Assembly: GCA_037043015.1 (NCBI GenBank)
Contig: CM073327.1
Location: forward strand, 9,158,727-9,222,726
Origin: Bryum argenteum
Lineage: Eukaryota > Streptophyta > Bryopsida > Bryales > Bryaceae
Length of the DNA: 64,000 nucleotides
Direction of reading: 5' to 3'
The notes beneath the pieces were generated by a model. The model ran no database searches, was not told the DNA's origin, and worked only from the letters and a program-made list of their open reading frames with translations. Numbering within the stretch: position 1 is the first letter of the stretch; each line of letters begins with the position of its first letter. Made by a program: the position numbers and the translations under genes. Of the stretch, positions 394 through 51,700 are shown in pieces.

Positions 394-402
394 ATTTGTG
401 AT
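394..402. repeat. Left 9-bp target site duplication of the MULE
   Basis: ATTTGTGAT directly abuts the left terminus and is repeated exactly at 10930-10938. The flanking bases differ, so the duplication is exactly 9 bp. Confidence 0.9.
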
Positions 403-615
403 GAGGGGTGCTAAGTCTTAAGCCATAAGCAATGAGCAATGAGCAATAAACTCTTGAGCAGTAACGCATAGTATTGTAACCAACTATCGACCTATGACCG
501 TGTAAAATGATTATATTACAAAATGATGTTCAAGTGTAAGAGCCAAAAATTTCATATAGAAATACATTCAAGACAGTAATTATTTGAGAAGGTAGCCTAT
601 AACCGTGGTTTGGTA
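403..615 (+). repeat. Left terminal inverted repeat of the MULE
   Basis: It shares blocks with the reverse complement of the right end. The first 22 bases match at 16 positions, a GCAATGAGCA block follows, then AACTCTTGAGC, then a GTAGCCTA-AACCGTG block near 595-610. Divergence and indels make the inner limit approximate. Confidence 0.75.
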
Positions 616-774
616 TATGAGTTCAATTTTTGAATAAGATTGATCAAAATTAGAATTCACATACATTAGTATCACTGTGTATATACGCAATCATATATCT
701 ATGAAAATCGTGATAAACATAAACATATACTGAAATTAATAAGAAATCAAAGCAAAATGTGCACATATGTAATA

Positions 775-2204
775 CTACATAGATATGTTGGAGTCAAAAC
801 TACCCTCAACTGAAGAGGTAGTGAAGGTATTGTCCTCCTCAGCCTGTATGTCTATGTAACTATGCACTTTAGGATTATAAGTACGTTGCTTCCAAACTAA
901 AGGAGGTGAGGGGGCTTCTGCTAAAGCCATAGCCATATCTTGTGCATAACATGGTAAAGTAAAAGTATCATGGGGACTGGTTAAGAGGGCCTCCGATGAA
1001 GCTCTGAAACACAATGTAGTATAAAGTTAGTTATATACAAATGAAAAAGAAAGAAAAATAAAATAAAAATGACAGCATATACATAAATGCATAAAATTTA
1101 CAAGTATACAACTTACTTACGCAAAAAGCAAATGGAACAATTGCGCTTTTGAGGAGGCTCTTCGGGTTTGTCGATATCACGAAGTCCCCCGGACTTTCAT
1201 TGTGGTGGAGGAGGGTTGCTTAATGGTGCAAGGAGAGCCTCGAATATGTTGGCGTCACCTTCAAAGGCTACAATGTGACGTCTAATATTGTAAATAAGCA
1301 CGTCACTGAGGCTCCCGAAAAAAAAAACCAAAAACATGTATAAGAAGATAAAGAAACTGGTTCACCATAAGTTAATAAAATCAAGATAAAATAAAGTATC
1401 ACCTTGTAGATGCAAACCAATCTAAAATAATATCTCCAGGCTTTGAAAGTACTTCAATCAAGCCTTGCATGAATGATAAGTCTTTCTCCCGAGGACCTCT
1501 CCATGGAACTCGATCCATTCATGTTCGAGATTCTTCGGATGTGAAGTTGAGAATGCAATCACATTTCTCAAGCCTCAGAATGATTGCGGAGAAATCGAAA
1601 CTCTCTCGGAATGAAAACGTGATACAATCGGTCCTCCACGGATGTATAGTTTGATGCAAAATCGATTGGTCTACAAAAAAATGAAAGTTGAATAGAGCAT
1701 TAGTCCTAAGTAGAAGAAGATTGGAAAAAAAGTATCGTGAAAGATATACAATATAATACCTCACTTATCTTGTCCGTTGGAGAAGTAAGGCGAAGATCTT
1801 GGACACCCCACCATTCTTTTTCAAAACAAAGTTGAACTCCGAGGCCCACTCAACAATATCGCGAAAATGGTGGAATCAAAGCGGTGAAATAGAAGTAGGG
1901 CAAAGATCATCGTGAAGAAATGCATCTCGCAAATGCAAAAATTGACTCTACACAATTTTTGTCTATGTTGTTCCAAGACGAGATAATTGAGGGCGGTGAA
2001 GAGATAGAAGGGACCTGTAAGCCTTCGGTATATCATGCTATGAGTAAGTCAATTCCCTTATGAGGGCAAATTTCGTGAGCTCACTCGACGTGTGCGGCCC
2101 GCTCCAACCTTATTATTCAAAACAATAAAGTCATATATTTCTACAAAGCAGGAGAAATACTGAAAAATAAATGAAGTAGAACAAGCACAAGATAGAAGCT
2201 TACC
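775..2204 (-). pseudogene. Decayed beta-class DNA amino-methyltransferase region continuing the ParB-like gene
   Basis: Downstream of the TGA at 2231 the minus strand keeps exon-like blocks: about 2108-1760, 1670-1403, 1310-1121 and 1003-775, with usable splice sites. The 1670-1403 block ends in a stretch reading GLIEVLSKPGDIILDWFAST. This resembles methyltransferase motif I of the CcrM/N4-cytosine type (LI..FS.PGD.VLDPFAGSG), which sits C-terminally in beta-class enzymes. The next block reads RRHIVAFEGDANIFEALL, like the strand after motif I with its acidic SAM-ribose ligand. The 2108-1760 block contains KEWWGVQDLRLTSPTD; a catalytic DPPY/SPPY motif is not clearly preserved. Stops and frame changes interrupt it: TGA 2231, stops in 2108-1760, a frame change within 1670-1403, and TGA near 1183. 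Fusion with the upstream ParB-like domain is inferred from order, strand and phase. Confidence 0.55.
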
Positions 2205-2230
2205 ACATCTATAAATCTATGAAGTGCTAT

Positions 2231-5200
2231 TCAACGAGGATCTCTCCCTTCATCTCCGTTAGCTCCCTGCAAAGTGAGATCTAACATAGACACATTCTGA
2301 ATGAAGTTGTATACGGAAGTAGATGAAGTATTCGTAGAAGCACTTGCACCATGAGGTTGCAAGTGTTTCTTCATTTTTTGCAGATGCAGCTGAGTTGCCT
2401 GTGTCAAAGTATGAGCACTGTCTTGCGTGCCATCAAAATCGTGAGTAGCAGGACCAGACACCTCAGATGGTGTTGGACGAGGAATAGAAGACAGTAGGAC
2501 ATTTGCGGAGGAAGCTCTCTTCTTGGTAGGTCGTGTCTTTCTCTCCTCTGATGGTCCTTGAGCAAGTAAATTCGTATCTTCATCTTCGGCTTCCTCTTCC
2601 GTAAGAGGCATGGGAACTCCACCATTGATGTTTGTCCTCTCATTAACCTCCTCAAGAGGTGTAAATGTAGGAGGACATTCGAGGTACCAACAACCGGCAG
2701 CCAGGTGATTGTCGTTGAACTTCTTCTGTTGAGCAGGTGTGTAGAAGCAAATGGAGGAGGTCTTATCTAGAAATGATGAGAAGTACGCAGGCATGGAATT
2801 CTCGCCAATGGCTTTCTTTCCAATGAGCTCCCTTTTGATGTATCTGAAGAAATTAAAGAAAATACTGAAGTCAATGTACTTGGAGAAATAGTAACATTAT
2901 TAATTTTGAAATAGATAGAAAAGATAGTATAGAACAATAGAATTAATCTTACCTGTATAAAACTCGCTGAACAACGGAAGCTGTGCCTGGATACTTTGTA
3001 AACTTGGTTTCTTTCTTGTACACAGGTTCTGCTCTTGGATTAAAAAAGGGCAAGAATGTCTTATCCCATAGTAGGATCCGGTAGGTCTCAACATATTGAG
3101 ATGGAGTCTTGATTCCACCAGATCAATCGGTTCCAACTTCTCGCGAATTTTTTCAAATTCTCGAAGAAGTTGGTCTTCAAGCTGCAAATATCAAAGTACA
3201 TGTTTCAGTATAAAAGTAAGACAATAAAACTATAAAGAATGAAAGTTGAATATAAAAATTACCTCAGTCCAAAAAGATGTCTTGATTATCCACGTTGCAA
3301 GTGGAATCTTGGAATCCGGTGTAGGAAATTTGTACGCTGCACGCATTGTCGGGGGAGCATTCCACCATGTCAACCAGAGTGCTTTGAATTGTGGTTGAAC
3401 AGGAGTTGTTGCGATTAATCGCAGTTTGTCAATAGTCATTTCTGGCTTAGAATACAAACTGTAATGTTCGTTTATCTGCAAAAGTAAGAAAAATATATCA
3501 GATTTATATTAGGAAATGAAGTTGATAGAAGTTCTTTAAAAAAAACGTGGGAAACAAACCTGTGTGAAGAAAGCTTCTCCATTATTTGGATTAGCTACTG
3601 CAAGGTACTTATCAAAGTCCTTGTTTTGAATGGAATCAACAAGGTCGGTTGCAGCTTTTGTCATCATGTCCCAAACTCCCTGAGGATTTTGTTGATCCTT
3701 GAGAGTCTTCTCGTAATATTCACGAGAAGCTGCATCCGATGCAGCTGCAATCTCTCTCTGCACAGTACAAGTAACTAGTCATGAAATAAAAACTTGAACT
3801 TAAGAATTTGAATAGATCTAATGAAATAGGAGAAAGGTAGAAACTTACACGATAAAAAAAAGCGATGAAGACTTTCTGAGTCAATGGATACCAAGTCGGG
3901 ATCGTGACATTTCTGTTTTTCGATTTCTCACAGGATTTATATTCCTCTTCTGTAAGTAGATTTTTGAAGTCAGTGAGCTTGAGTCCTCCAAAAGATCGGA
4001 TCCGTTGAAGTCTTGCTGGAAGGCTCGTTTTTACATGGTCATTTTCAGTGGACCTGCACAAATAGAATGATAATTGATGAAGTGAAAGATACAAAATAAT
4101 TGTAAGAAAAAAACAATTGCAAAGTAGAAATAAACTTACCAATTGATGTCATTCATTGCATCCAAAACATCTCCAGCATTCAAAACATCTCCAGCATTCT
4201 CCCTTGGATCGATAATAAACGTATCAACAGAATAGTGCCAATCTTGTTCATCTGCATGGTGCATGTTGATGTGCCTCCACCAAGCTCTGTGGCGGTGATT
4301 GCCATCCCACACATACAACATCTTACCGTGAAGATCTTGTAGATGCACTTGCCTAGAGAGGAGCTCTTCAAACATCTCATTTGCCTCGATCCAATATGGA
4401 TCCCATGCCTCCATTTCCTCCTCCGAAATGGCCTTTGATCTACCTCTGTAATCATACGCAGAAACATAGAGAACACGGTCGCCCTCACGATAACCATGCA
4501 CAAACTCATTCTCCAATTTCTGAATCTCGACGTCACTAACCGGGCGTACTTTTGGCATGGAGATCATGCGACAGAGAGGTACCGGAATTCGAGCTAAAGT
4601 CAAGCTCGAAAGAAGAGCACGACTGTCTTTCTTTTGTATTTTTCGGAGAAGTAACTCTCCCTCAAGTACGTTGTTGATTCCATCGGGAAGTTCTGGTTGA
4701 GGGAGGACCTCCGTGGGTACAACAGATTCGGCGGGGGGAATGGCCTCAAGTGTTGACAATGGCCTATGAGTTGAACTCACCTGCAAATATAAACTACAGT
4801 CAAAAATTGCTCACATATTGAAAGTCCTACTTGCAAAAAATTAATTATATAAATGATATTAACATATCAAAGAAGAAACATACATAGCGCACGACAATTG
4901 ACCCCGAAACTAACAGAAGTTTTTTTGCACTTATAGGGTGCAGCAAGAGAAGCTTGCTACCCGCAGCAAGCTCTGCGGACCAAGAACTAATTCTTACAAG
5001 CGGACCAAGAACTAATTCTGCAAAACAGCATTACTCCGTTACAAAAGGTTTGAAACCCTATTACGTCGATAGGCCGCGTGCACGCGGACCGTCTCAACGC
5101 CCGTCTCAAAAACCAGAATGATCGCAATTTGGACAGTCCGCGTGCACGCGGACCGTCCCGACATCCATCTCAAAAACCAGAATGTTCGCGATTTCGACAG

Positions 5201-5803
5201 TCCGCGTGCACGCGGACCATCCCGACGTCGATCTCACAAACCAAAACGTTCGCATTTTATCATTTGGACGAGCCGCGTGCACGCGGACTCTTCTTACGTC
5301 GGTTTGAAACAACATATTATTCGCATTTCGGTAATCCGCGTGCACGCGGACAGCAACCACATTCGTTTCAAGCATCAATTCCAGCACCAAAACTCTAACT
5401 TTCTTCACTAAACAACATTTTGCGGTGCAAAACAAACATCACTCAAAACGCAGAATTACACTAAACCCCCAAAATCGTGAGGACTGGAGGAAGCCGAACT
5501 ACTGTCCGCGCACACGCGGACAGGAAATCAGATTTCTAAATTCCCCATTCTACTAAGTCCAGAATTGCTAAACAAACTATAATCCAGAAATCTCACCGCT
5601 TGAGGTGTTGGAGAGATGATCTCCAGGTCGTCATTACTTTCTTGGACCGTTTCTTCTAACCCATCATGAGCTCCTCGACCTCCTCGTCCTCGACTACCTC
5701 GCGCAGCCCTTCCACGGCCACCTCGTCCTCTAAGTCCTTCGCCGCCACTGTCAGCAACTCCTCCACTCATTGCTTCAATCGCCATCTCCAGGTTGTTCTC
5801 CAT
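2231..5803 (-). CDS. MULE accessory protein with Arg-Gly-rich N terminus and ParB/Srx-like DGxHR domain
   Basis: I read seven exons on the minus strand: 5803-5597, 4780-4140, 4053-3849, 3757-3560, 3475-3263, 3107-2953 and 2843-2231. They sum to 2,232 nt, 743 aa with no internal stop, all with GT-AG borders and matching phases. Residues 24-44 are an RGG-type tract, common in nucleic-acid-binding proteins. Exon 2 (residues 70-283) holds a stretch ending VWDGNHRHRAW; D228-G-N-H-R232 matches the ParB/sulfiredoxin-fold signature, preceded by a helix-like VEIQKLENEF. Later exons are Trp/Tyr-rich and unrecognised; the last contains an acidic segment and KKR. A farther 5' acceptor for exon 6 (start 3181) would shift the frame, so I prefer 3107. 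The TGA at 2231 may be premature, because related coding sequence continues beyond it. ParB assignment rests on motif reading only. Confidence 0.68.
5072..5521. repeat. Array of CpG-rich 18-bp palindromes, about 64-bp spacing
   Basis: The perfect core CCGCGTGCACGCGG occurs at 5074, 5138, 5202, 5273 and 5336; the full form GTCCGCGTGCACGCGGAC is present at 5136-5153 and 5200-5217. A sixth member, GTCCGCGCACACGCGGAC (5504-5521), keeps both 7-bp arms. Spacings are 64, 64, 71, 63 and 170 bp. The spacers of the first units are themselves related (CTCAAAAACCAGAATG recurs), so it arose by tandem duplication. It lies in intron 1 of the ParB-like gene. Each palindrome has four CpGs in otherwise AT-rich DNA, suggesting a conserved protein-binding or methylation site. 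Confidence 0.85.
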
Positions 5804-6844
5804 CTACAACGAATGCAAACCACCAAAAAAAGAGCTCAACACACGTACACCAACAAAAAAAGAGCCCCAAACAAAACTAACAACTTCCTTGCACAAAAAC
5901 CTCAAACCCTAATGCCATGACGGCTACTACCCCTTTCAACCCTAAATGTTATTTACTTTACTAACTCCTGAAATTCTCCACTTTCCTATCTCTTCAAACT
6001 AATTCGGATTCAGGTCGCTAATACCTTTGATTCGCTCTCGCCATCGCTCTCACCAAGTGACGGTTGATGATCTAAACTCCGCATTCCAACAAGTCGATAC
6101 AACAGCAATGCAGGCGCAACTGATAGAACTTGGGTTTTCTTTGAAAAGCTCCACACCGCAATCTTCAAATGTTAAAGCACGAACACTATCTACTACATTC
6201 TCGTCTATACGACTTCTAATCCTTCTTACCCGCGATTTCAAAAGCTCTCTTCTACTACTAAAGCGGAATACACTCCGCTTTTTTTTTTCTACTCCCGTCT
6301 CTCGCTACCAATAGAGGTGTTCGAATGTCTAGCATTTGGATTGGTTCGCGATTAGTTTAAACTTCCAGACATGTTCTGTTCGAGCTTCTCTTCTAATACA
6401 AATACTTAAATGGTTTTCATTGCCACAACATTTTCATCAATGCGCACGCCACCTCTACCCTTCTAATTTCAAACAACCATAAACGCCTTAATTGCATTTA
6501 CGAAACCATATCTTCCATTCTGTATAGTACATACCCTTTTGTCATAAAACCAAATATTTTTATTTGATTTTCTTGTTACATGATTATAATTCAAATACTT
6601 TGTCCGTGCCGTCAATACAACTACCATGATATGTAACATTAATTCTTGGCGACTCTAAAAACGACTGCAATATAATGTCCACTACGTTATTTTTGAAAAC
6701 TCACCTACTTTAAGTACGTTAAGATTTTTCTTAATCTTTTTGAATTCTATGTACTCATGCAAACTCCGAGTGGTAGACAATCTATTAATACTCAATCTAC
6801 CTTCTCTCATCATTCTCTTCTAACCCTTCCATGGTCTTCTCAAA
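5804..6844. promoter_or_regulatory. Shared region between the two divergent MULE genes
   Basis: About 1 kb separates the ATG of the leftward gene (5803) from the first open stretch of the transposase (6845). No convincing ORF spans it. By position it should hold both 5' ends, perhaps with untranslated exons. I see no decisive TATA box. Confidence 0.4.
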
Positions 6845-9800
6845 ATGGCTTCCTTCTGTCTTCGTGGTGGAGGACTACCTTTTACAGTCCCTTTAGGTGT
6901 AGATGGAAAGGTTATTGTTCATGAACACATGCTTGAGGCAAAATTTAATTTGCTTCCTGGATCTTTGTTCGTAGAAAAGATTTTGTTTAATGAGTCCGGT
7001 GTTTCGATAGGGACTTTGCTCGAAAACAAAACTACTGATTCCACTGGAGGGTTTTGGATTGTTTCATCTAGCACGTACTCTGTATTCAGTAGGGAGTTTG
7101 AGTCTCAAATGTGACATTCAACAACTTCCTTTGTCCACTTATCCACTTCGGTTTCTGTGAAGATAGAGCCTTCGGACAATATCATCACTTTGTTCAGCGA
7201 CTCCGATGACAAATCATTCCCTACGGTACATTCTTCTGTACCTACTAACAATCCTTCTTCCAGTAGAATTCCTACAATACAACTCCCATCGAAGCCTACT
7301 TCTTCTCATCCTTCTTCTTTGTCTAGTGGGCGTCCACCCTTACATCTTGTTCTCTCCTCAAGTGCAATCACTATGATGGAAGCGTTGGTTCTAACCTCCA
7401 AAAGGAGACGGTCCAAATCTGAACTTAGTGGTGTAGATTTCAATAACATTCGAGTCGAAGAAGTTAGTTATTTGCCACAACATTATGATGGAAACGTAGT
7501 CTTTATCCTACCCTCATTGCTTCAAGGAGTTCCTCAAACATATGGTAAAGGTTTAGATGGGATGGACAAGCAACACGACGGACATGCATGGTGCACAACA
7601 AGGATAACTCACATTCAGAATGATTACAACATATCCTTTCGTCGATCCTCCTGCGTTGGTGAGCTACAGTGCTCTAATGAAGCTTGTGAGTACATGATGC
7701 GGAACTCAGGGCAATGCAATACTACGCAATGGACTGGCCAGACACCAACACGATTTGAAGTTGGACGAAATCCGCCTCCAAAGTCAACGTTGCAATGCAA
7801 GGTTTGCCATACTCCTCCTCTGTTTGCCTTGAGGACATGCAACGCCGTAATCTTCTATGTAACATCACCTACAATAGAGAGTCGCGCATGTATCCACTTA
7901 GGCGAGCATAAGCACCCTGTGGTGGTGATGGAATTTGTAGGGAGACAATAGATTTAGTATATCGGTGCGTGGCAAAAGAGGTCTCTAGAACGCCCAACGC
8001 TACGAACTCGCTATAATGATTGGTGCAAATCGAGCGTTTTTAGAAAACTTTCTTTTCAAAAGCCCCACACCGAGAAAAGCGACCATCTTTAGAAAGTGTT
8101 ATGGATAAGTATGAAACACTAGCCTCTCCCAATTGCGAAAATTATATTGTAGGTGCAAAGAGACTCGTTCGAAGTGATCGTGGGCCTATTGATAGCATAC
8201 AAGCTTTGAAGGTGAATAATCCTTTCATTTTTGTTCACGAGAATAGATTCCCTGGCCAAACAAAAGACAAAGTTTTCATCTTTAAGATGTTAGTTCAACT
8301 TGAAGGTAGTGGTTTTGACCTTGTGAAGCGCATGCAACATGGAGGAGACTTACAAGATTCGTGGGTCATGTTTGATCATGTTAAGCGACTAAATGATTGG
8401 ACGACTATGGGTTGCCATGTCTATCACAACAAATATTGCAAGGTCATGACAATTGCATGTTGTGACATGCAATCAGAAGATGCTAGTGCTCAAATTCTAT
8501 TTTGGCAGAATTTAAACTCTGTGATGCATGAGCACGGTGTTTCGAGTATCAACTTCAAAGGCTTCATGGCAGATAGTGCTCAAGCTAATTGGATTGCAGT
8601 GAGGAAGGTTTATGGAGGAGGGGACGGCAATACTCCTATGAAAGACAAGGAGCGAACCTGTCTTTATCATTGGTCTGCCAACTTGGATAAGTATACGCAG
8701 AAGTATATCAAACCATCCATGCAAGCTCATCATAAGCAACTATGTCAAGCCTATAAGAATGCAAAGAGTTAAGGAAGTGAAACTCAATTCCACGTCATCA
8801 AAAATTGGTGGTTATCATCCAGTGCGACTCATCAAGATGGTGTGGCACACTTACAAGAGTGGTTTGGATTACGCACTTTCGATACAAGCAGTGGGGTGGC
8901 GAATTTCAAATGGTGAGTTTCAGTATATCAGATGGTAATGAAATTATAGCTCTTGATTCATACAACTATATTATTTTTTCTTGAATGAAGTGTACTCATT
9001 TGATTTACAAAACACTTTCTTTTTTGCAGGACCTAACTTTGGAAGAGATAGCAAAGGTTCCTACATGCAACCTTGCGGACCATCCCATAGTACAATGAAG
9101 AGGGCATCAGGAAACAAGATGACTTGTCCTTATGAGGCCACCATACACGATATGATTCGTGCTTTCATGCAGATAACAAACTACAGATCGTGGGTGAAGG
9201 GTGGAAAAGGAGGGACTGGACCAAGCGACACAGCCCTAAAATTGAAGGCAGCAATGCGAAGTGGTGATCCCAATCTTCTGGCTGAAGTAATGAAGACTAT
9301 TCCAGGTGCCGAAGACTTGCCCCTTACAAACTCTGGCTTGGAAGGAGCAAAGATTTTTGGCTCTACAAAGAGGAAATCTGACTTACCTCCTGGATCAGAG
9401 TTTGACTCTCATCGTCCGGATAAGGTAAATTACTCGGTACCTCGTCCTTCTTCACGGGCAACACGAGCACGTATTGAAGAGTCTCTGAATACACCGTTAT
9501 ATGAGGTGACCCATGTGACGGGTGTCCATGAGAGTATCGTGATCCTAACCAATGGCACATAGCTCGCACCAATCCAAAATCCCGGGTGAAATGTCAAGCT
9601 ATGCAGTACATACGAAAGGCATGTGAGGCACAAATCAACAAGGGCCGCCAAGCAACTTGCGCTCCAACTTATCGTGGCCTGAAGAAAGCTTACGGAAAAG
9701 ACACCTTGGAGGTTACGGAGTTTTGGTTCTGTCCTGATGATATCAAGCAATGCGTTATGGGAAAAAAGAAGTTTTTTGTAAAAGACTGGCCGCCAGTACC

Positions 9801-10395
9801 TATGGTGTCGCCTATCCAGATTGGTACTAACTTATCCCGGGAGGAACTTCTTGCACTAGAGGATGCTGGATTCCAACTAGAGCAGCGAAAAGCCTTGTCA
9901 CCAAGGAATCTTTTCAAAACCATTCCTAATCTTCCGATTCCTCTCTCTGGGATTCATATTCCCGAGAATCTTGATAGTCATGCGCCAACTAGGTATGGAA
10001 AACTTGTTCGTCGAAGTTCTCAGGCTCCTGATGCTGATCACAGAAACAAGTGGGAGAGTTCGGCTCTCATGGATGGATATAGCATTGTTGGAGTCACAAT
10101 TGTCCCTCACCCTGGATATGGAGCGGTTATTTCTCTTGCGGCTCCAACAGATAATGTCTACCGTGTCTCCATCAGCAATTTTCCATATTATACTTGTCCT
10201 GACTTCACTAGGATGAGTACAACTTCTCTCGGAAAGAAAGGGAAATGGGTGAATTGCAAGCATTTATATTATCTTCTTAGGTATTACTGCAAACTTGACT
10301 ACACAAAGGATATCTTCATGCATGCACCAACTTGGAGCTATCGGGAGGTCATCCACCTACTACAATCAGCTCAGATAGTTGATTCTACCAATTGA
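6845..10395 (+). pseudogene. Decayed MULE transposase (GCM1/WRKY-type zinc finger, RNase-H-like core, SWIM-like finger)
   Basis: Open blocks run 6845-7951, 7942-8100, 8101-8912, about 9031-9540 and 9541-10395. The first carries SSCVGELQCSNEACEYM, a later CKVC and CIHLGEHKHPV; the Cys spacing with HxH resembles the GCM1/WRKY-type finger found in MULE transposases. The 8101-8912 block has FMADSAQANW followed by ERTCLYHWSANL, like the D...C..H..N catalytic context of MULE DDE enzymes. The last block ends with TCPDF...WVNCKHLYYL, a SWIM-like finger with the second Cys replaced. A probable intron lies at about 8913-9030. Lesions include TGA 7112, TAG 7951 with a frame change, shifts between 8014 and 8100, TAA 8770, and a frame change near 9535, so no full-length enzyme is encoded. 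Confidence 0.72.
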
Positions 10396-10734
10396 TTTTA
10401 TTTTCATACATAGTGTTACTTTAATATATGTATCGTTTATAGAATGTAAATATTCAATTATCACATGTTTTTGTCAACTACAGTATTCTATTTGATTGAG
10501 AGACATGTTTTAGGACTCCTATGCTTCATAAATAATAGTCTATACTACTTACTCATGTTTCAAGAAATGAAACATATATGTGTAGTCGTATCTTAAGGTC
10601 CTCTTTTATTGACTTTGAATCTACAATTTCTTTACACGGGTTTTTCTTTCTTGAGGCTCTTTATGTTGAATCTCTATAATATGGCACCTCTATAATATGG
10701 CACCTAAACCCGTGGCATGACTTGTACATGATGC

Positions 10735-10929
10735 ATTGGTTCACGGTTTTAGGCTACTATTCCCACGGTAATAGGCTAACAACCACACATGATATTTTGG
10801 AAAGTAGCCATAAAACCTATTTCATTTCCGAATATTTCGAAAATTTTGTCTTATACCAAGCTCACCGCTCAAGAGTTTCTGCTAACCGCTCAATGCTCAT
10901 TGCTCATGGCTCATGACCTAGCTTCACTC
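10735..10929 (-). repeat. Right terminal inverted repeat of the MULE
   Basis: Inverted partner of the left terminus, ending in CTTCACTC just before the target duplication. Shared blocks include GCTCAAGAGTT and GCTCATTGCTCAT. Confidence 0.75.
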
Positions 10930-10938
10930 ATTTGTGAT
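10930..10938. repeat. Right 9-bp target site duplication of the MULE
   Basis: ATTTGTGAT directly follows the right terminus and matches 394-402 exactly. Confidence 0.9.
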
Positions 10939-12035: not shown

Positions 12036-12717
12036 CAAATAATCAACAAGCTATCTATTGTAATGTATACCCATGTAGGAACATAATAGGTTAACTAAAC
12101 TTGTATGAGTGTGTAGCTCTACATGTAGCCCTCTACGTAGTTCCAGGTGGACAACTCTACATGCAGCCCTCTACGTAGTTCCAGGTGGACAGCTCCACAC
12201 CGACAATTCAAACTTCACGGCAAGTAATGATGGCGTAGATCCCCCCCCCTAACGTCTGAGCGGCCACTTAGAGATTAGTATTGGTATCAAGATTGTAGTG
12301 ACTTTCTTTTGTTTGCATTATGTGTTATACATGTCTCCAAGATTAGCACTTGTATGTGTCGGTGGGAGCACGTTAGGTTCTCAAAGCTCCACGCATGATT
12401 GAGCTTTTTGTTCGAGTAAAACTTCAATTGAGCTATCTTCGTAACCTTTCATTTCAGTGAGTAGTTGAGTATGAACCAATCTAAGCAAGTGAGAAAACGT
12501 ATCTTGAGTCTTTGTTCTTAAGGTTGAGTGAATCTTGCTTGCAAAAGAACCTTTCAATTACTTTCCACACGATCCCCACAAAGGACTTTGAGATACAAAC
12601 ATAGCAAGGTCTAAAGCCCCCAATTGTTGGGTGGTCTAAGGACTGCTTTGCAATGTAGAGAAAATCACCACACAATTAAGAATTCCAAATTCAACCATTT
12701 CCATTCAAATCTTTTCC
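12036..12717. other. Intergenic, with a short tandem duplication
   Basis: A unit of about 34 bp ending GCCCTCTACGTAGTTCCAGG is duplicated at roughly 12117-12190. No gene is recognised in the remainder. Confidence 0.5.
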
Positions 12718-13649: not shown

Positions 13650-13682
13650 TTAAATGGGCGTACTTCATTACTGTTGTATATA

Positions 13683-13983
13683 TGGTATGCACACCTATTA
13701 TCGTGCACTTAAGGAAAATTGAGGGAATCTATATACTTGGAAAGAGAAATGAGTGGGTTACTATTTTTCAGGGATGAGGAATAGGAAAAGACTCACTTTC
13801 CCTATTTTTGTGATTTAAAAAAAACACACATAATTAAATACAATTTTTAAAAGCAGTAGCCTAAAGGCGGACACCCTAATTATGTCCGCATGAGGTACAT
13901 GCAAGGGAGGTTAGATCTTCATGAAAGAAAGAATCTTGGGTGCACGCCTTTAGGTAGGTGCCCGCTTATAGGTGTGCATACCA
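13683..13983. mobile_element. MITE with TA target sites
   Basis: TGGTATGCACACCTAT at 13683 is repeated inverted at the right end (ending 13983), flanked on both sides by TA. Length 301 bp, non-coding. TA duplication fits a Tc1/mariner (Stowaway-like) origin. It lies about 250 bp upstream of the TMEM45-like gene and may contribute to its 5' flank. Confidence 0.65.
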
Positions 13984-14237
13984 TACTGCCGTGGAGAATG
14001 GAACCCACAACGTCCTCTTGCCTGATATGAGCTCGATCTTTCCTCTCTCAAAAAAATTCTCCATAAGGGGGCTCATTCTCATTGTCGGAGAAAATTAGGG
14101 TTCTGCACTTGCGATGGCGGTTCGAGTACCACTAGCAGAATCGGCACCCCCTAAATCGCCGTAGCCAGCCACGGATCGATCAAGCTAACAAAAACCCATC
14201 GCGAGATTGATTGGATTTTTGGGTTTAGGATTTAGCA

Positions 14238-16290
14238 ATGGGTTCGTTCAAGGGCCATGTTCTTCCGGGATCCATGTTCTTGCTAGTCGGAATCTGGCAC
14301 TTACTGAACTCCATCACGAACTACGTCGTGAACCCCCGATCGTTTCGTGCTCGCGCATGGCACCCCGCCCGCTGCTTCTCCGGGAAAGCCCGGTACCTGG
14401 AGCTTTACATTCTTTTGGTCGGGACGTTCACGGATATGTGCATCGAGTTTTTCTACTCCACGCATTTGAAATTCACTGTCAATGGCGCTCTCAATACCAA
14501 TCACTTGAATGATTTCGAGCACGCTGCAATGTTGCTCATGTTCTTCCTCTTCTGCGTCACCGTGCTCGTCCATGAGACCACCAGGTACTTCTACTTTCCC
14601 TTACCCATCTTCTCACTGTTTTTAGTGATACTCTTACTTACATTGTGCTCTGCATGGATAACTGTAGCACATGTGATATTCGAAGAATATTGCAGAATAA
14701 TATCATTCATTGAAGAAGCAGTCGATTGTCGATGTTTCCGAACGCATTACATTTCTGAAGATACCCTTACGGTTACTGAGAATTCTCCAAGGATCGACTA
14801 AAATGTTATGTGATTTATCAAATGAATGTCCATTCTAGAGTGACTCTAGCGTATTGTAATTTAGAAAGTGCTGATCGCTAGTAATGTAAACTAACTTTGA
14901 GTTCGATCGTGTACTCGTCTGAAATTTTGACATCAAAGGATTGTGCAGTGGTAATTTAGGGTTTTAAGAATGTAAATAAGATAGTACTTATCGAACTAAC
15001 ATGATATCAGAAGAATTTTCTAAAATGCAGCTGATTTTTGATTCCGTAGGCCTTACGTTCTAGGTTAGTTTGAATCTTCCAAGGATCGTATATTGTTCTG
15101 TGAATTTTTTGTATGTATATTCAAGAGAGAGTGCAGTGTAACATAATTCAGGTGGTACTCAATTAAATTTCAAGCAGTTAATTGAATTTCAAGCAGTTGA
15201 TTGTCAATTTTGCACCGAAAATCCCTCAAAGATTGTGCGCTAGTAAAATTCAGGGCTGAAGAATCGGACACTGGGAACTTTCACCAGTAGCGTACCTTTT
15301 GTGATTTAAATGGACAATGCTCTGCCGCGACAATGGCTGTGCATATTCTTGCCACTTGCATCTAAATCTCTCCAGGGATCTCATATTCTATTAGTATGCT
15401 CTTAGATTTCAGTTCGTTTAATGTGTGCACATTCTAGATAAAATGCAGCTTAACATATTCATCTTAGTATTGCATAAGAAAACTACTGACTTCCAAGCAG
15501 TCAGTAGTTCAATTATTTGCAGATTCACCGTCGAATGCGCAGTAAAACAAGGGCTCAAACAATCTAACATTGGAATTTCTTATAGTAGCATTGCTTTCTG
15601 ATTGAGTTTCAAGCGGTCTATTGTTTACTCTCTTGAAGGTTTAGCATCGAAAAACCTGCAGTAGCAACATCAGGCATGTGCCAATGGTGTTTCTGATACT
15701 AGCATTGCATCGGATTCTGGAATTCAAAAAAACAGTGCCTTATTTGTGGCAATGGGCTGTGCAGGTTGTTGCCGCTTCCAGAGGGCTCCTTGTTCGTAAT
15801 AGCAGCGATGGCATTCACAGCCGAGTTCCTCCTCTTCTACTTCCACTCCACAAACCACCACGGCTTAGAAGGCAGGTACCACGAGATTCTAGTTCTCCTG
15901 ATAGGCCTCTGCATCGTGTGCGCCCTCCTGTCCGGAGCATACCCGGAGAGCTTCCCAGTGGACATTCTGAGCGGCATGGCGATCACACTCCAAGGAGCCT
16001 GGTTCTACTTCACAGCCTTCACTCTCTACGGCCCTCTCATGCCGGAGGGATGCACTGACGACCGTGACGAGATTGTGTGCTACGCTGATTCCTTTGAAGC
16101 TCGAGGGGAGGCTTCTGCGCACATTCAGCTTGCTATTCTTGTTCCGTGCGTTTGGGTGGGAGTGCTTGTGGCTTATGGCGTTGCTGCTCACTTCTGGGGG
16201 CACCCTGATATCTTCCACCCCCCTAGATCTTCTGACTCTCGCTCTGCCCTCGACTCTCCCATCTCTTCTTCTCCTGCCGATCACCAGTGA
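14238..16290 (+). CDS. TMEM45/DUF716 family multi-pass membrane protein
   Basis: Two exons, 14238-14584 and 15765-16290, join at AG|GTACTT ... GTGCAG|G to give 290 aa, close to the usual TMEM45 length of about 275. The N terminus MGSFKGHVLPGSMFLLVG, the HLLNSI segment, the DFEHAAMLLMF segment with its HE, and FYFHSTNHHGLEGRYH in exon 2 are family hallmarks with conserved histidines inside membrane segments. About seven hydrophobic helices are visible. The tail after residue 265 is Ser/Pro-rich and hydrophilic. Family members sit in endomembranes or the plasma membrane; plant homologues are poorly characterised and some are described as virus-responsive. The start is the first ATG in frame, with good family agreement. 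The single intron is 1.18 kb and repetitive. Confidence 0.9.
14585..15764 (+). repeat. Diverged repeats filling the intron of the TMEM45-like gene
   Basis: Motifs recur in the same order about every 350-400 bp: a TCCAAGGATCG-like block (14788, 15079, then CTCCAGGGATCT near 15371), a CAAGCAGT(T/C) block (15174, 15193, 15497, 15609) and a TGCGC/GTGCAGTAGTAAAA block. This suggests the intron grew by old tandem duplication. Confidence 0.5.
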
Positions 16291-48960: not shown

Positions 48961-50523
48961 GTTGGACGAGTGTTTGAAATAACTGACGGAGAAATGTGAA
49001 TCGTAGGGCCCCTTTATATTGCGGTTAAGGCATAAGGGAGAATGCTCAATAATGGCTCACATTTGTGATTTTTTAGTCTCTATTGAAGTAAATGAAGTAA
49101 GCAGTTTTCATGCATGGGAAAGTAAATGGAGTTACGGTCAAAGTGGATTCATCATTTTTAGATTTTTCTACAATTGTTTATGAATTTTTGAAGATACCTA
49201 TGATGTTTGTTGTGAGTACATGCTACTATTGAAGTGTGGAGCTATTATGTACATGTGGGTCAAGAAGCCTAGTGCTCCATTATTGGCACTGCTTAATTTT
49301 GAGCACTCTCCCTTGTTTTGATGTAAGCCCAATTGGAGTAGGAGTGAGTTTCCACTTAGATCTTGACTTGCAAATCAGGACGTTCATTGGACCTTGCAAT
49401 ACAAAGTCCCTAGGCTCAATTGTAGAGCTCAAATAATGTCACAACACCACATAGCTTTACATTGTTCAATAATTTGCATTTGATATGAGGATTGTGACGT
49501 TAAGAATATTTAGATAACCAAATATGTGGTCAAAATCCAAGTAATTAGATTACCAAATATATGATAAAAAGCCGACAAATTACAAACGTCTCTTTTTCTT
49601 TTGAGCCAACCAAATTGGTCCTTTCAAGCTCAAAATTATAGCACCAATAAGAATTGATGTTTTCCCACAATGTTGTAACCTTGTAATTTGTAAACCCTTA
49701 CAACAAAATCCATTGATTTATGAATATTATTTAACGACATCTATTTTGCCTCCATGCACAACATTGGAGGGATATTTCACAATTAGTAGTCTACATTACA
49801 CTTGATAGATAGTCCGTGGTGCGGATGCTACTACATCATAATCTAACATTGATAATATCACACCATCCGTTTCACCAAGAAGAGTGATATAAACAAGGTG
49901 TAACATATTTGATAATAACACATTTTGAAGATTCTGCTAAATGTGATATTTTTTATTTTAAAAAGGTGGAAAATCAAAACTAAATTATAATGGGAAAAAA
50001 AAAAAAAAAAAAAAAAAAAGTGACACGAATGCATAGAGGTGGAGTCTCGTGGCACGATGAGGGTCATGCGCCGCCCCTTCAGCGCCTTGAAAAGAAAGCC
50101 CTCGCGGTGCAGTGTATTTGAGGGTTGGTAAACAATCAAGTTGCATGAACAACATTGCATTTAATGCAGTGGCGGCCCATGACCCATATTATTACATTTT
50201 CATTACTGATAATGAAAAAAATAAGAGATGTTATAAAGGGTGATAGGGATAATAATGATGGAGTTTTACTTTATAAAAATAGGTTTCAAACATTTAGGTG
50301 ATAATATCAAGGTGTTCTATCAACAAGGGTGACATCATCAAGGTGTTCTATCAACATTGTTGTGTTTGTTATAATCCCAAGAATTCAAAACAAGTTCATA
50401 TATATTTATTACTTTTGTTTTGTAACAAACCATCAATTTCAATTGAAGTAAAAACAATCACCACAAAGTCCTCTTGTTTTGGTTATCGGAATTTGTTAAT
50501 ATAAGCCAATCCTCAAAATTAGT

Positions 50524-50606
<83 letters not shown>

Positions 50607-51700
50607 TTCCTAATAAATAGATTATTGATGAATGTATTACCAAGTGAAAAGTACATGTGAACCATGGCAAGACAACTTACCCGGAGAAACTGCAATTGAA
50701 CGTGTGTGCTAAATGAACGTTGTAGAGGAAGGAAAGAACTCGGGGGATAAAGTTGTATGGATTAGGAGAAGTTTTCTCGGGGTGGCTGGATGAGGAGCCA
50801 TTCCAAAGAAAGCTCTGGTAAATACATTGGTGGGTAACCAATGGGAGTAAAATCTATCTAGAAATCTAGAACTACGCATAGAATACATGTGAAGTAAATT
50901 GGTTGTATGCAACTATAGAGCTTGCGTAGCTTCTACAAAAGTCTCCAAGATCTTCTCCTTACGGAGGTGGTCATGCCATCTCTCATCAAAAAATAAATTG
51001 AATTCATCTCTAATCATATCATCCACAATAAATATTCTCTAAGTACACTCGAGATCATGGCAGCCTGTGTCAGTTTCGTAGACAATTGGGAACCTACGAG
51101 GCATTGGTGCGAGAGGAGAAGCATCTCACAAACCATTACTGAGGGAACTTGCATCAAAACTTACAAAATAGTCCGGGCATACCTTCAAGCGGATGTTGCC
51201 GTAGAGCACTCGAAGAACCGATGGCTGATAGTCTTTGGTGAAACAAATAGACAACTTCGGCAACTGTCGTCAATGTAAGGGTTCATCTGCTCTCTGAAGA
51301 CATTCACGTCAATGTAAGGGTTTATCCGCTTCCTCTAAACATTCACCGCTACTGCACGGTGGTATATAGACTATATGAAGGCCGCCTCCTTATGCGGTTT
51401 AGGTGAGGCCCAAACTTCATGCCAATCTGGCTTGTACGTAGGAGGAAGTAGCTACATTCATTTGTTGGAAATAGATCTCTGAAGTTGACTATTGGTAACA
51501 AGTAGTTGGCGTCCGATATTCGCTTGAATATTGCATCAAGGATGTTTGTGTGCTCCATCTCCAAGGGCCAAATGTCATGAAAGCTATAACACCTAGAAAT
51601 CACAAAGAAGAAGATGAAACTCGAAAGGAAGATTTAGGGGTAGAGAAGATTTTAACTGAATATAGTTTGTTTAGTAAGGTAGTAGATGGGAAAGAGATAG
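48961..51700. other. Intergenic with simple repeats, no gene seen
   Basis: Includes a poly-A run (49996-50019), the TA microsatellite below, and a short duplication CGTCAATGTAAGGGTT(C/T)ATC at about 51268 and 51308. No convincing coding sequence. Confidence 0.5.
50527..50603. repeat. (TA)n microsatellite
   Basis: About 38 uninterrupted TA dinucleotides. Confidence 0.95.

Follow-up and report, generated by a model that had tools for sequence, protein, structure and literature searches.

Accessory proteins that join a ParB-like domain to a methyltransferase domain have already been published for eukaryotic DNA transposons (PMC12477816). The passages of that paper on the Ectocarpus element Sola1-1_Ec32 describe a protein of 1104 aa that combines a ParB-like domain with an N4C/N6A-type methyltransferase domain and is encoded on the strand opposite the transposase; they refer to further cases in green and red algae (Iyer 2011; Petroll et al.) and already suggest that proteins of this kind bind their own transposon and modify it. 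Here we describe a comparable gene on an element of the Mutator-like element (MULE) type from Bryum argenteum. The sequence analyzed, referred to below as the window, is a stretch of 64,000 nucleotides (assembly GCA_037043015.1, contig CM073327.1, positions 9,158,727 to 9,222,726 of the forward strand), and the element occupies its positions 403-10929 (10,527 bp). Two divergent genes lie within it, a rightward transposase gene and a leftward gene for a putative ParB-methyltransferase protein, and the element borders, both genes, and the collinearity of both with an intact relative were directly observed. The leftward gene may let the transposon recognize its own DNA. A preliminary description of the locus, made from the letters of the window, had known of no such fusion in a eukaryotic class II transposon, a claim of novelty that does not survive the published brown algal case. 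New as far as searched are the MULE host, the evidence of selection, and the arrays of long palindromes that both elements have in the gene's 5' part. A literature search lying mostly outside subscription papers gave no pointer to this gene in a MULE or to adjoining palindrome arrays, and the words methyltransferase and ParB do not occur in the text of the MULE survey PMC6446971.

The element is delimited by imperfect inverted ends and an exact 9-bp target site duplication, in agreement with the bordered MULE of the preliminary description. The inverted arms (401-444 and 10888-10931) are 44 nt long and 82% complementary, gapped alignment of the element ends gives terminal inverted repeats (TIRs) of about 100 nt, and the repeat ATTTGTGAT abuts both ends (Table 1). 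A target site duplication (TSD) of about 9 bp combined with TIRs is thus present, as in MULEs. The leftward gene runs on the minus strand from 5803 to 775 and contains a DGNHR motif and a beta-class methyltransferase block; in the window copy it is broken. Seven upstream exons could be placed with GT-AG borders, and two methyltransferase exons and a tail exon were placed by eye. An RGG-rich start (5803-5597), the DGNHR motif in exon 2 (4780-4140), a premature stop, and, beyond it, methyltransferase motif I and RRHIVAFEGD had all been read from the sequence before, and each was found where it had been located: the exon-7 frame ends at 2231, and, on the minus strand, SKPGDIILDWFAST occupies about 1446-1405 and RRHIVAFEGD about 1283-1254. 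A clean 743-aa protein, as first read, was not reproduced, since exon 6 (3181-2953) changes frame in the exon model. Besides this frame change and the stop at 2231, the window gene is interrupted by stops and frame changes within its methyltransferase part.

A relative of the gene was found by scanning a prokaryote genome collection for the pattern WDGNHRxxAW, which yielded three contigs. Other loci from this pattern were rejected; L146 looked spurious, and L147 had no DGNHRxxAW frame. The relative (C58; loci L148/L153) lies in G001, a biocrust metagenome-assembled genome (MAG) of Synechococcales, a cyanobacterial group. Its gene, which has introns, is open from exon 2 through the tail, and nothing in it was recognized as matching the RGG exon 1. 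All seven pieces of the gene are collinear within window 4780-775, with E values from 1.5e-29 for the ParB piece to 0.007 for the tail (Table 1), and the other matches of C58 pieces to the window consist of one at E 0.11, the rest being at E 0.3 or worse. An open reading frame (ORF) of 548 aa spans the middle region into the methyltransferase without a break. Four of the GT-AG introns of the relative lie at the positions of the window introns between exons 2-6 and one lies after the S-adenosylmethionine (AdoMet) motif, and the window intron between exons 6 and 7 is absent. At the nucleotide level, blastn of C58 against the window at E ≤ 0.01 gave one 29-bp match. With the exons collinear and the 548-aa ORF joining the middle region to the methyltransferase, the order first proposed, a DGNHR domain and then a methyltransferase in one gene, is borne out; subject to the weak ParB identity weighed below, both domains therefore stand in one gene of a DNA transposon, on the strand opposite the transposase. 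A second copy in G001 (C134; L151) is 94% identical over the 548-aa ORF and is without the ParB exon.

The G001 bin also holds an open MULE-like transposase (L149/L152). The window transposase gene is disrupted by stops and frame changes, and its pieces are collinear with two open frames of this relative; identity is 66% over 181 positions within the 719-aa open frame. A Pfam scan of three broken window ORFs matched no transposase family, and the best Pfam match of the relative's transposase was PF00872 (Transposase_mut) at E 0.038 and 13.3 bits, below the cut-off of 21. C-x2-H and SWIM-like signatures were recognized by eye. Single-sequence AlphaFold prediction of one transposase ORF gave no usable model (pLDDT 34), and no relative was found in viral contigs scanned with the window transposase or with that of the relative. 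The window and the relative's transposase contig share a 12-mer (Table 1), for which the chance expectation is roughly 0.5 by estimate; with up to 2 mismatches it has 6 matches in G001, not above the reversed control (15).

We consider the G001 contigs probable eukaryotic contamination of the cyanobacterial MAG, because they carry GT-AG introns, because a homologous transposase lies in the same bin, and because neither the ParB query among 96 other relatives nor the transposase query among 385 other sampled members of the phylum gave a match. A search of G001 with PF00504 did not help to place the contaminant, since a control cyanobacterium matched too. The contigs are filed under a Synechococcales MAG, and a genuine cyanobacterial gene would weaken the selection argument for transposons; against such an origin stand the conserved positions of the introns, the transposase, and the two empty searches, and we regard it as exceedingly improbable. 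Over 814 codons, C58 and C134 are separated by 139.5 synonymous and 47.5 nonsynonymous substitutions, a ratio of nonsynonymous to synonymous rates (dN/dS) of 0.081, and the methyltransferase part alone gives 0.084 over 280 codons. Judged by these substitutions, exons 3 to methyltransferase of the relative are under purifying selection. Such strong constraint on the gene therefore speaks against a captured passenger of the Pack-MULE kind, without a role for the element. MULEs do tend to acquire fragments of host genes (PMC6446971), but this gene is long, constrained, and found with the same transposase family in two hosts, so that a passenger appears very unlikely.

The methyltransferase fold was assessed with window block 1866-1200, read through with X at stops. 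It matched PF01555 at E 0.0043 (17.5 bits, below the curated cut-off of 26.7), PHROG DNA methyltransferases at E 0.005 and 0.0098, and, more weakly, NCBIfam methyltransferases at E 0.0091 and 0.11. Among PDB sequences all four rows at E ≤ 10 were DNA methyltransferases, two of DpnA (E 0.0045 and 0.0048) and two of RsrI (both E 1.3), which we take to be beta-class enzymes. Matches in phage and plasmid records had modest E values (best 0.009). Among the 30 phage rows listed from 163 records (E ≤ 10), 25 were annotated as methylases or methyltransferases, 2 were annotated as hypothetical proteins, and 3 lay in unannotated records, the rows being partly redundant in that several are one phage under two accessions; the 30 plasmid rows listed from 2461 records comprised 29 annotated as methyltransferase and 1 as alcohol dehydrogenase. 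A frame-tolerant profile alignment of 1190-2230 scored 99, whereas none of 24 control stretches exceeded 58.4; since only the motif X-I part of this alignment is credible, we do not use it to assign motif IV. The relative's methyltransferase, with two exons joined, matched PF01555 at E 2.9e-5 (24.6 bits, likewise below the cut-off) and a PHROG DNA methyltransferase at E 1.2e-4. A beta-class fold, as the preliminary description had it, thus has Pfam, PHROG, and PDB matches above chance in its motif X-I region, with both Pfam scores below the curated cut-off, and the fold is supported at its C-terminal part by these sequence comparisons.

Catalysis is another matter. The AdoMet motif is TASTG in both intact copies and the motif X region is recognizable, but at motif IV, where phage enzymes align with their DPPY, C58 and C134 read DVPE (LADMVLFDVPEDLP and LVDMVLFDVPEDLP). 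The pattern [DNSE]PP[YFWHL] is absent from the 1142-aa concatenation of the C58 pieces; catalytic [DNS]PP[YFW] is likewise missing from the intact copies, and motif IV is broken in the window copy. Because both intact copies have DVPE and not DPPY or SPPY, 4mC/6mA writing is unproven and doubtful, and with it the usual amino-methyltransferase chemistry of the predicted accessory protein. The preliminary description had suggested a self-encoded 4mC/6mA-type modifier, and the idea of a working methyltransferase that is targeted by the ParB-like domain and marks the element's own DNA is already in print (PMC12477816). Both the beta-class fold with motifs X and I and the strong purifying selection on the methyltransferase part would suit such an enzyme. 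In DVPE, however, the aromatic residue and one proline are gone, and in the rotifer N4CMT the change of SPPY to APPA abolishes activity, though that substitution affects other residues (PMC8885841); we hold a working writer to be somewhat unlikely.

For the N-terminal domain, the DGNHR-type signature is present as WDGNHRH in both the window and the relative. No ParB match was obtained with Pfam, PHROGs, or NCBIfam for the window exon or with Pfam for the relative, whose exon matched the PHROG 'ParB-like partition protein' at E 0.25. Scans of viral contigs for DGNHR found 7 stretches in one scan and at least 120 in another, and from the 119 ORFs taken from them, by-eye removal of likely spurious frames left 66 nonredundant segments. 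In a random draw of 10 of the 66, 8 matched PF02195 (ParB_N) at E ≤ 0.1, 1 above cut-off; among hand-picked segments 2 of 4 matched. A hidden Markov model (HMM) built from the 66 segments placed the window exon at the top of 2122 window fragments (E 0.0013), the match covering 22 residues. A PDB profile search with a two-row ParB alignment returned chance matches only. In tblastn against phages, the window ParB region had no match at E ≤ 1; relaxing the threshold to E ≤ 10 brought up 3 plasmid and 12 phage records, all at E 2 or worse; two of these weak loci were dropped on annotation alone, as hypothetical proteins. No relative was found in viral contigs scanned with the window ParB region, the ParB alignment, or the 548-aa ORF of the relative.

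A ParB-like domain might serve transposition as a nickase or NTPase, in strand nicking or target handling, with the methyltransferase fold only aiding DNA binding. The ParB-methylase fusion protein Bce_0392 is reported to nick DNA (PMC5512222), and the domain order of the window gene recurs on phage contig L096. Against this, the single-sequence AlphaFold model of the ParB exon is unusable (pLDDT 36) and catalytic residues cannot be placed in it, which leaves motif evidence only; a nicking or NTPase role is in our judgment unlikely.

Intron 1 of the window gene contains five perfect palindromes of 14-18 bp in tandem, spaced by 64, 64, 71, and 63 nt, with the core CCGCGTGCACGCGG; when up to 3 mismatches are allowed, the rest of the window has one more such site. 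In the alignment of the repeats, 27 of 65 columns are invariant overall, and a 16-column invariant run covers the palindrome; such a run arose in 0 of 100,000 column shuffles. Five of the nine perfect palindromes of at least 14 bp and at least 40% GC in the 64 kb fall in the array, whereas 20 mononucleotide shuffles of the window averaged 1.85. On C58, positions 4295-4691, which precede the ParB exon and reach the end of the contig, consist of 3.7 tandem copies of a 106-bp unit; the palindrome core GGGTCTCGGATCCGAGACCC occurs four times in them, with 0, 3, 1, and 0 mismatches, and two of these sites are perfect 30-bp palindromes. By analogy, the arrays would have a parS-like layout.

In our preferred reading, to which we assign a probability of roughly 0.45, the element is a decayed autonomous two-gene MULE with a transposase and an accessory protein that would achieve self-recognition via the palindromes and would counter silencing or assist transposition, rather than being a standard 4mC/6mA writer. 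Gene 1 would supply the transposase. Gene 2 would encode one long protein made up of a ParB/Srx-like DGNHR domain, a conserved middle region, and a domain of the beta-class amino-methyltransferase fold, the last with its AdoMet motif kept and its catalytic motif IV altered (DVPE in the intact relatives). ParB acts at parS arrays. By analogy, the palindrome arrays in the 5' part of the gene may be what the accessory protein uses to recognize the element that encodes it, and the protein might then act as an AdoMet-binding factor for self-recognition and for anti-silencing or assistance in transposition. We favor self-recognition by analogy with parS arrays and with VANC proteins, whose targets are tandem repeats in VANDAL noncoding DNA, including VANC21 introns (PMC5735166). 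A eukaryotic parS-like system, in which the ParB-like protein loads on the palindrome arrays inside its own gene and spreads over the element, and the re-tooled fold (DVPE) works as a switch that depends on AdoMet and either blocks cytosine methylation by the host or licenses transposition, strikes us as improbable.

Several observations weigh against the two-gene MULE with a self-recognizing accessory protein. The ParB/Srx identity of exon 2, weak and not proven, rests on a motif of about 25 residues: with DGNHR masked, the window exon was no longer among the best eight matches listed for the HMM of viral segments, and the hhalign probability of 94% over 26 columns fell to 0.16%. The ParB/Srx assignment of the preliminary description thus stands for the signature; no profile across the domain and no model bears it out. 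The dN/dS estimates cover exons 3 to methyltransferase, and the ParB exon, absent from C134, lies outside them. No relative contig seen carried TIRs or the transposase together with the ParB-methyltransferase gene. These parts are not placed on one molecule in the relative because the contigs are fragments. For the expected association of homologues with MULE ends, the partial evidence is a metagenome bin shared with an intact transposase of the family. For the methyltransferase, a local HMM gave the raw ORF 1518-1402 the best rank among 2122 window fragments (E 1.4e-7) and hhalign of the relative's domain with 12 phage and plasmid methyltransferases gave 98.4 (global) and 97.6 (local), but both tests are partly circular because the 12 templates were picked as matches of the window block, a circularity of which the Pfam, PHROG, and PDB results are free. 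The 548-aa ORF of the relative alone had no PF01555 match at E ≤ 1, the match requiring the next exon, and the relative matched DpnA in PDB at E 0.047 only. DVPE might still be catalytic. The two arrays agree in layout and in place, the 5' part of the gene, and not in sequence, and tandem repeats are common in transposons. The window array has an observed/expected CpG ratio of 1.88, as against 0.71 for the remainder of the element, but the C58 array has only 0.75; CpG retention is therefore not common to both arrays.

Table 1. Features of the MULE-type element in window coordinates
Feature	Position	Strand	Basis or remark
Target site duplication, left (ATTTGTGAT)	394..402	.	Exact 9-bp repeat
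Left terminal inverted repeat, imperfect, inner limit approximate	403..510	.	Inverted-arm search and end alignment
Subterminal motif ATAACCGTGGTT	599..610	+	Identical to the opening 12 bases of C80, the transposase contig of the relative; suggestive only
Last exon, acidic C-terminal tail, 5' boundary approximate	775..1008	-	ORF; tblastn with relative's tail E 0.007
Methyltransferase exon after motif I (RRHIVAFEGD ...), boundaries by eye	1200..1305	-	Read-through block, PDB, relative
Methyltransferase exon, motifs X and I (PWRGPREK...PGDIILDWFAST), one internal stop	1403..1680	-	PF01555 E 0.0043; DpnA E 0.0045; PHROG DNA methyltransferases; relative E 5e-9
Decayed stretch at expected motifs IV and V, frames broken, motif IV not readable	1681..2203	-	1866-1768 part placed in alignment
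Exon 7, conserved middle region and linker, terminated by stop	2231..2843	-	tblastn E 7.9e-13
Exon 6, internal frame changes	2953..3181	-	Later frame matched by relative
Exon 5, conserved middle region	3263..3475	-	tblastn E 2.7e-17, 47% identity
Exon 4, conserved middle region	3560..3757	-	tblastn E 3.8e-6
Exon 3	3849..4053	-	tblastn with relative E 9e-7
Exon 2, putative ParB/Srx-like domain with WDGNHRHRAW	4140..4780	-	36.7% identity over 147 positions to relative, E 1.5e-29
Tandem array of five palindromes (14-18 bp, core CCGCGTGCACGCGG), intron 1	5068..5371	.	Palindrome and repeat scans
Sixth palindrome arm pair, altered center	5504..5521	.	Core start 5506, 2 mismatches
Exon 1, start codon and RGG-rich stretch	5597..5803	-	ORF list, exon model
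Transposase part A, broken	6863..8918	+	Collinear with relative's open 719-aa frame, E 1.8e-164
Transposase part B; C-terminal SWIM-like C-x-C...C-x-H (by eye)	8975..10278	+	E 2.4e-114
Right terminal inverted repeat, inner limit approximate	10830..10929	.	Inverted-arm search and end alignment
Target site duplication, right (ATTTGTGAT)	10930..10938	.	Exact 9-bp repeat

Elsewhere in the window, host-type ORFs include DUF716 and class I tRNA synthetase sequences. The DUF716-domain gene lies a few kilobases past the element at 14240-16290 (+ strand; ORF 15706-16287, E 1.6e-38). Just upstream of it, at 13681-13985, is a pair of 31-nt inverted repeats, 87% complementary and 243 nt apart, possibly a small transposon. 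Two 38-nt tandem units, 95% identical, occur at 12117-12192, and 62 perfect palindromes of at least 14 nt, consisting of AT/TA runs, begin within the 1 kb at about 50000-51000.

The ParB-methyltransferase type of accessory protein, so far mentioned for algal transposons, would thus also occur on a MULE-type element, and in a relative the protein is under strong constraint. For biochemistry, open gene sequence is available from exon 2 to the tail (L148/L153) and from the second copy minus the ParB exon (L151). The palindrome arrays are concrete candidate binding sites that make the self-recognition idea testable, and DVPE is a concrete ground for doubting simple 4mC/6mA writing.

Among known systems, the phage ORF L096:7719-6421 resembles the window gene in having a DGNHR part N-terminal and a beta-class methyltransferase C-terminal; its protein, from a viral contig, matches the full PF01555 methyltransferase at E 1.1e-40 and has no ParB match in Pfam. 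Unlike the window gene, it has DPPY and FMGSGTT and is a single ORF of 432 aa, too short for the middle region. DIRS1-type retroelements also carry an N6-adenine methylase domain, described as catalytically inactive, but they are class I elements with a tyrosine recombinase, and the available text on them makes no mention of a ParB domain (PMC3537659). Mariner elements of algal viruses are, like the element here, DNA transposons with a methyltransferase gene; theirs is a separate protein beside the endonuclease, of the Methyltransf_26 or C5 type, and no ParB fusion is mentioned in the available text (PMC3627910). Sola1-1_Ec32, compared by description only, is a Sola1 element of 21.5 kb from a brown alga (PMC12477816), whereas the element here is MULE-type, with a 9-bp TSD and a length of 10.5 kb. 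The VANC motif differs, being YAGTATTAY, and the main text of PMC5735166 is without the words methyltransferase and palindrom-. The likeness is a functional analogy only: as in the Arabidopsis VANDAL elements, where the role of VANC is anti-silencing (PMC5735166), the leftward gene is an accessory gene of a MULE.

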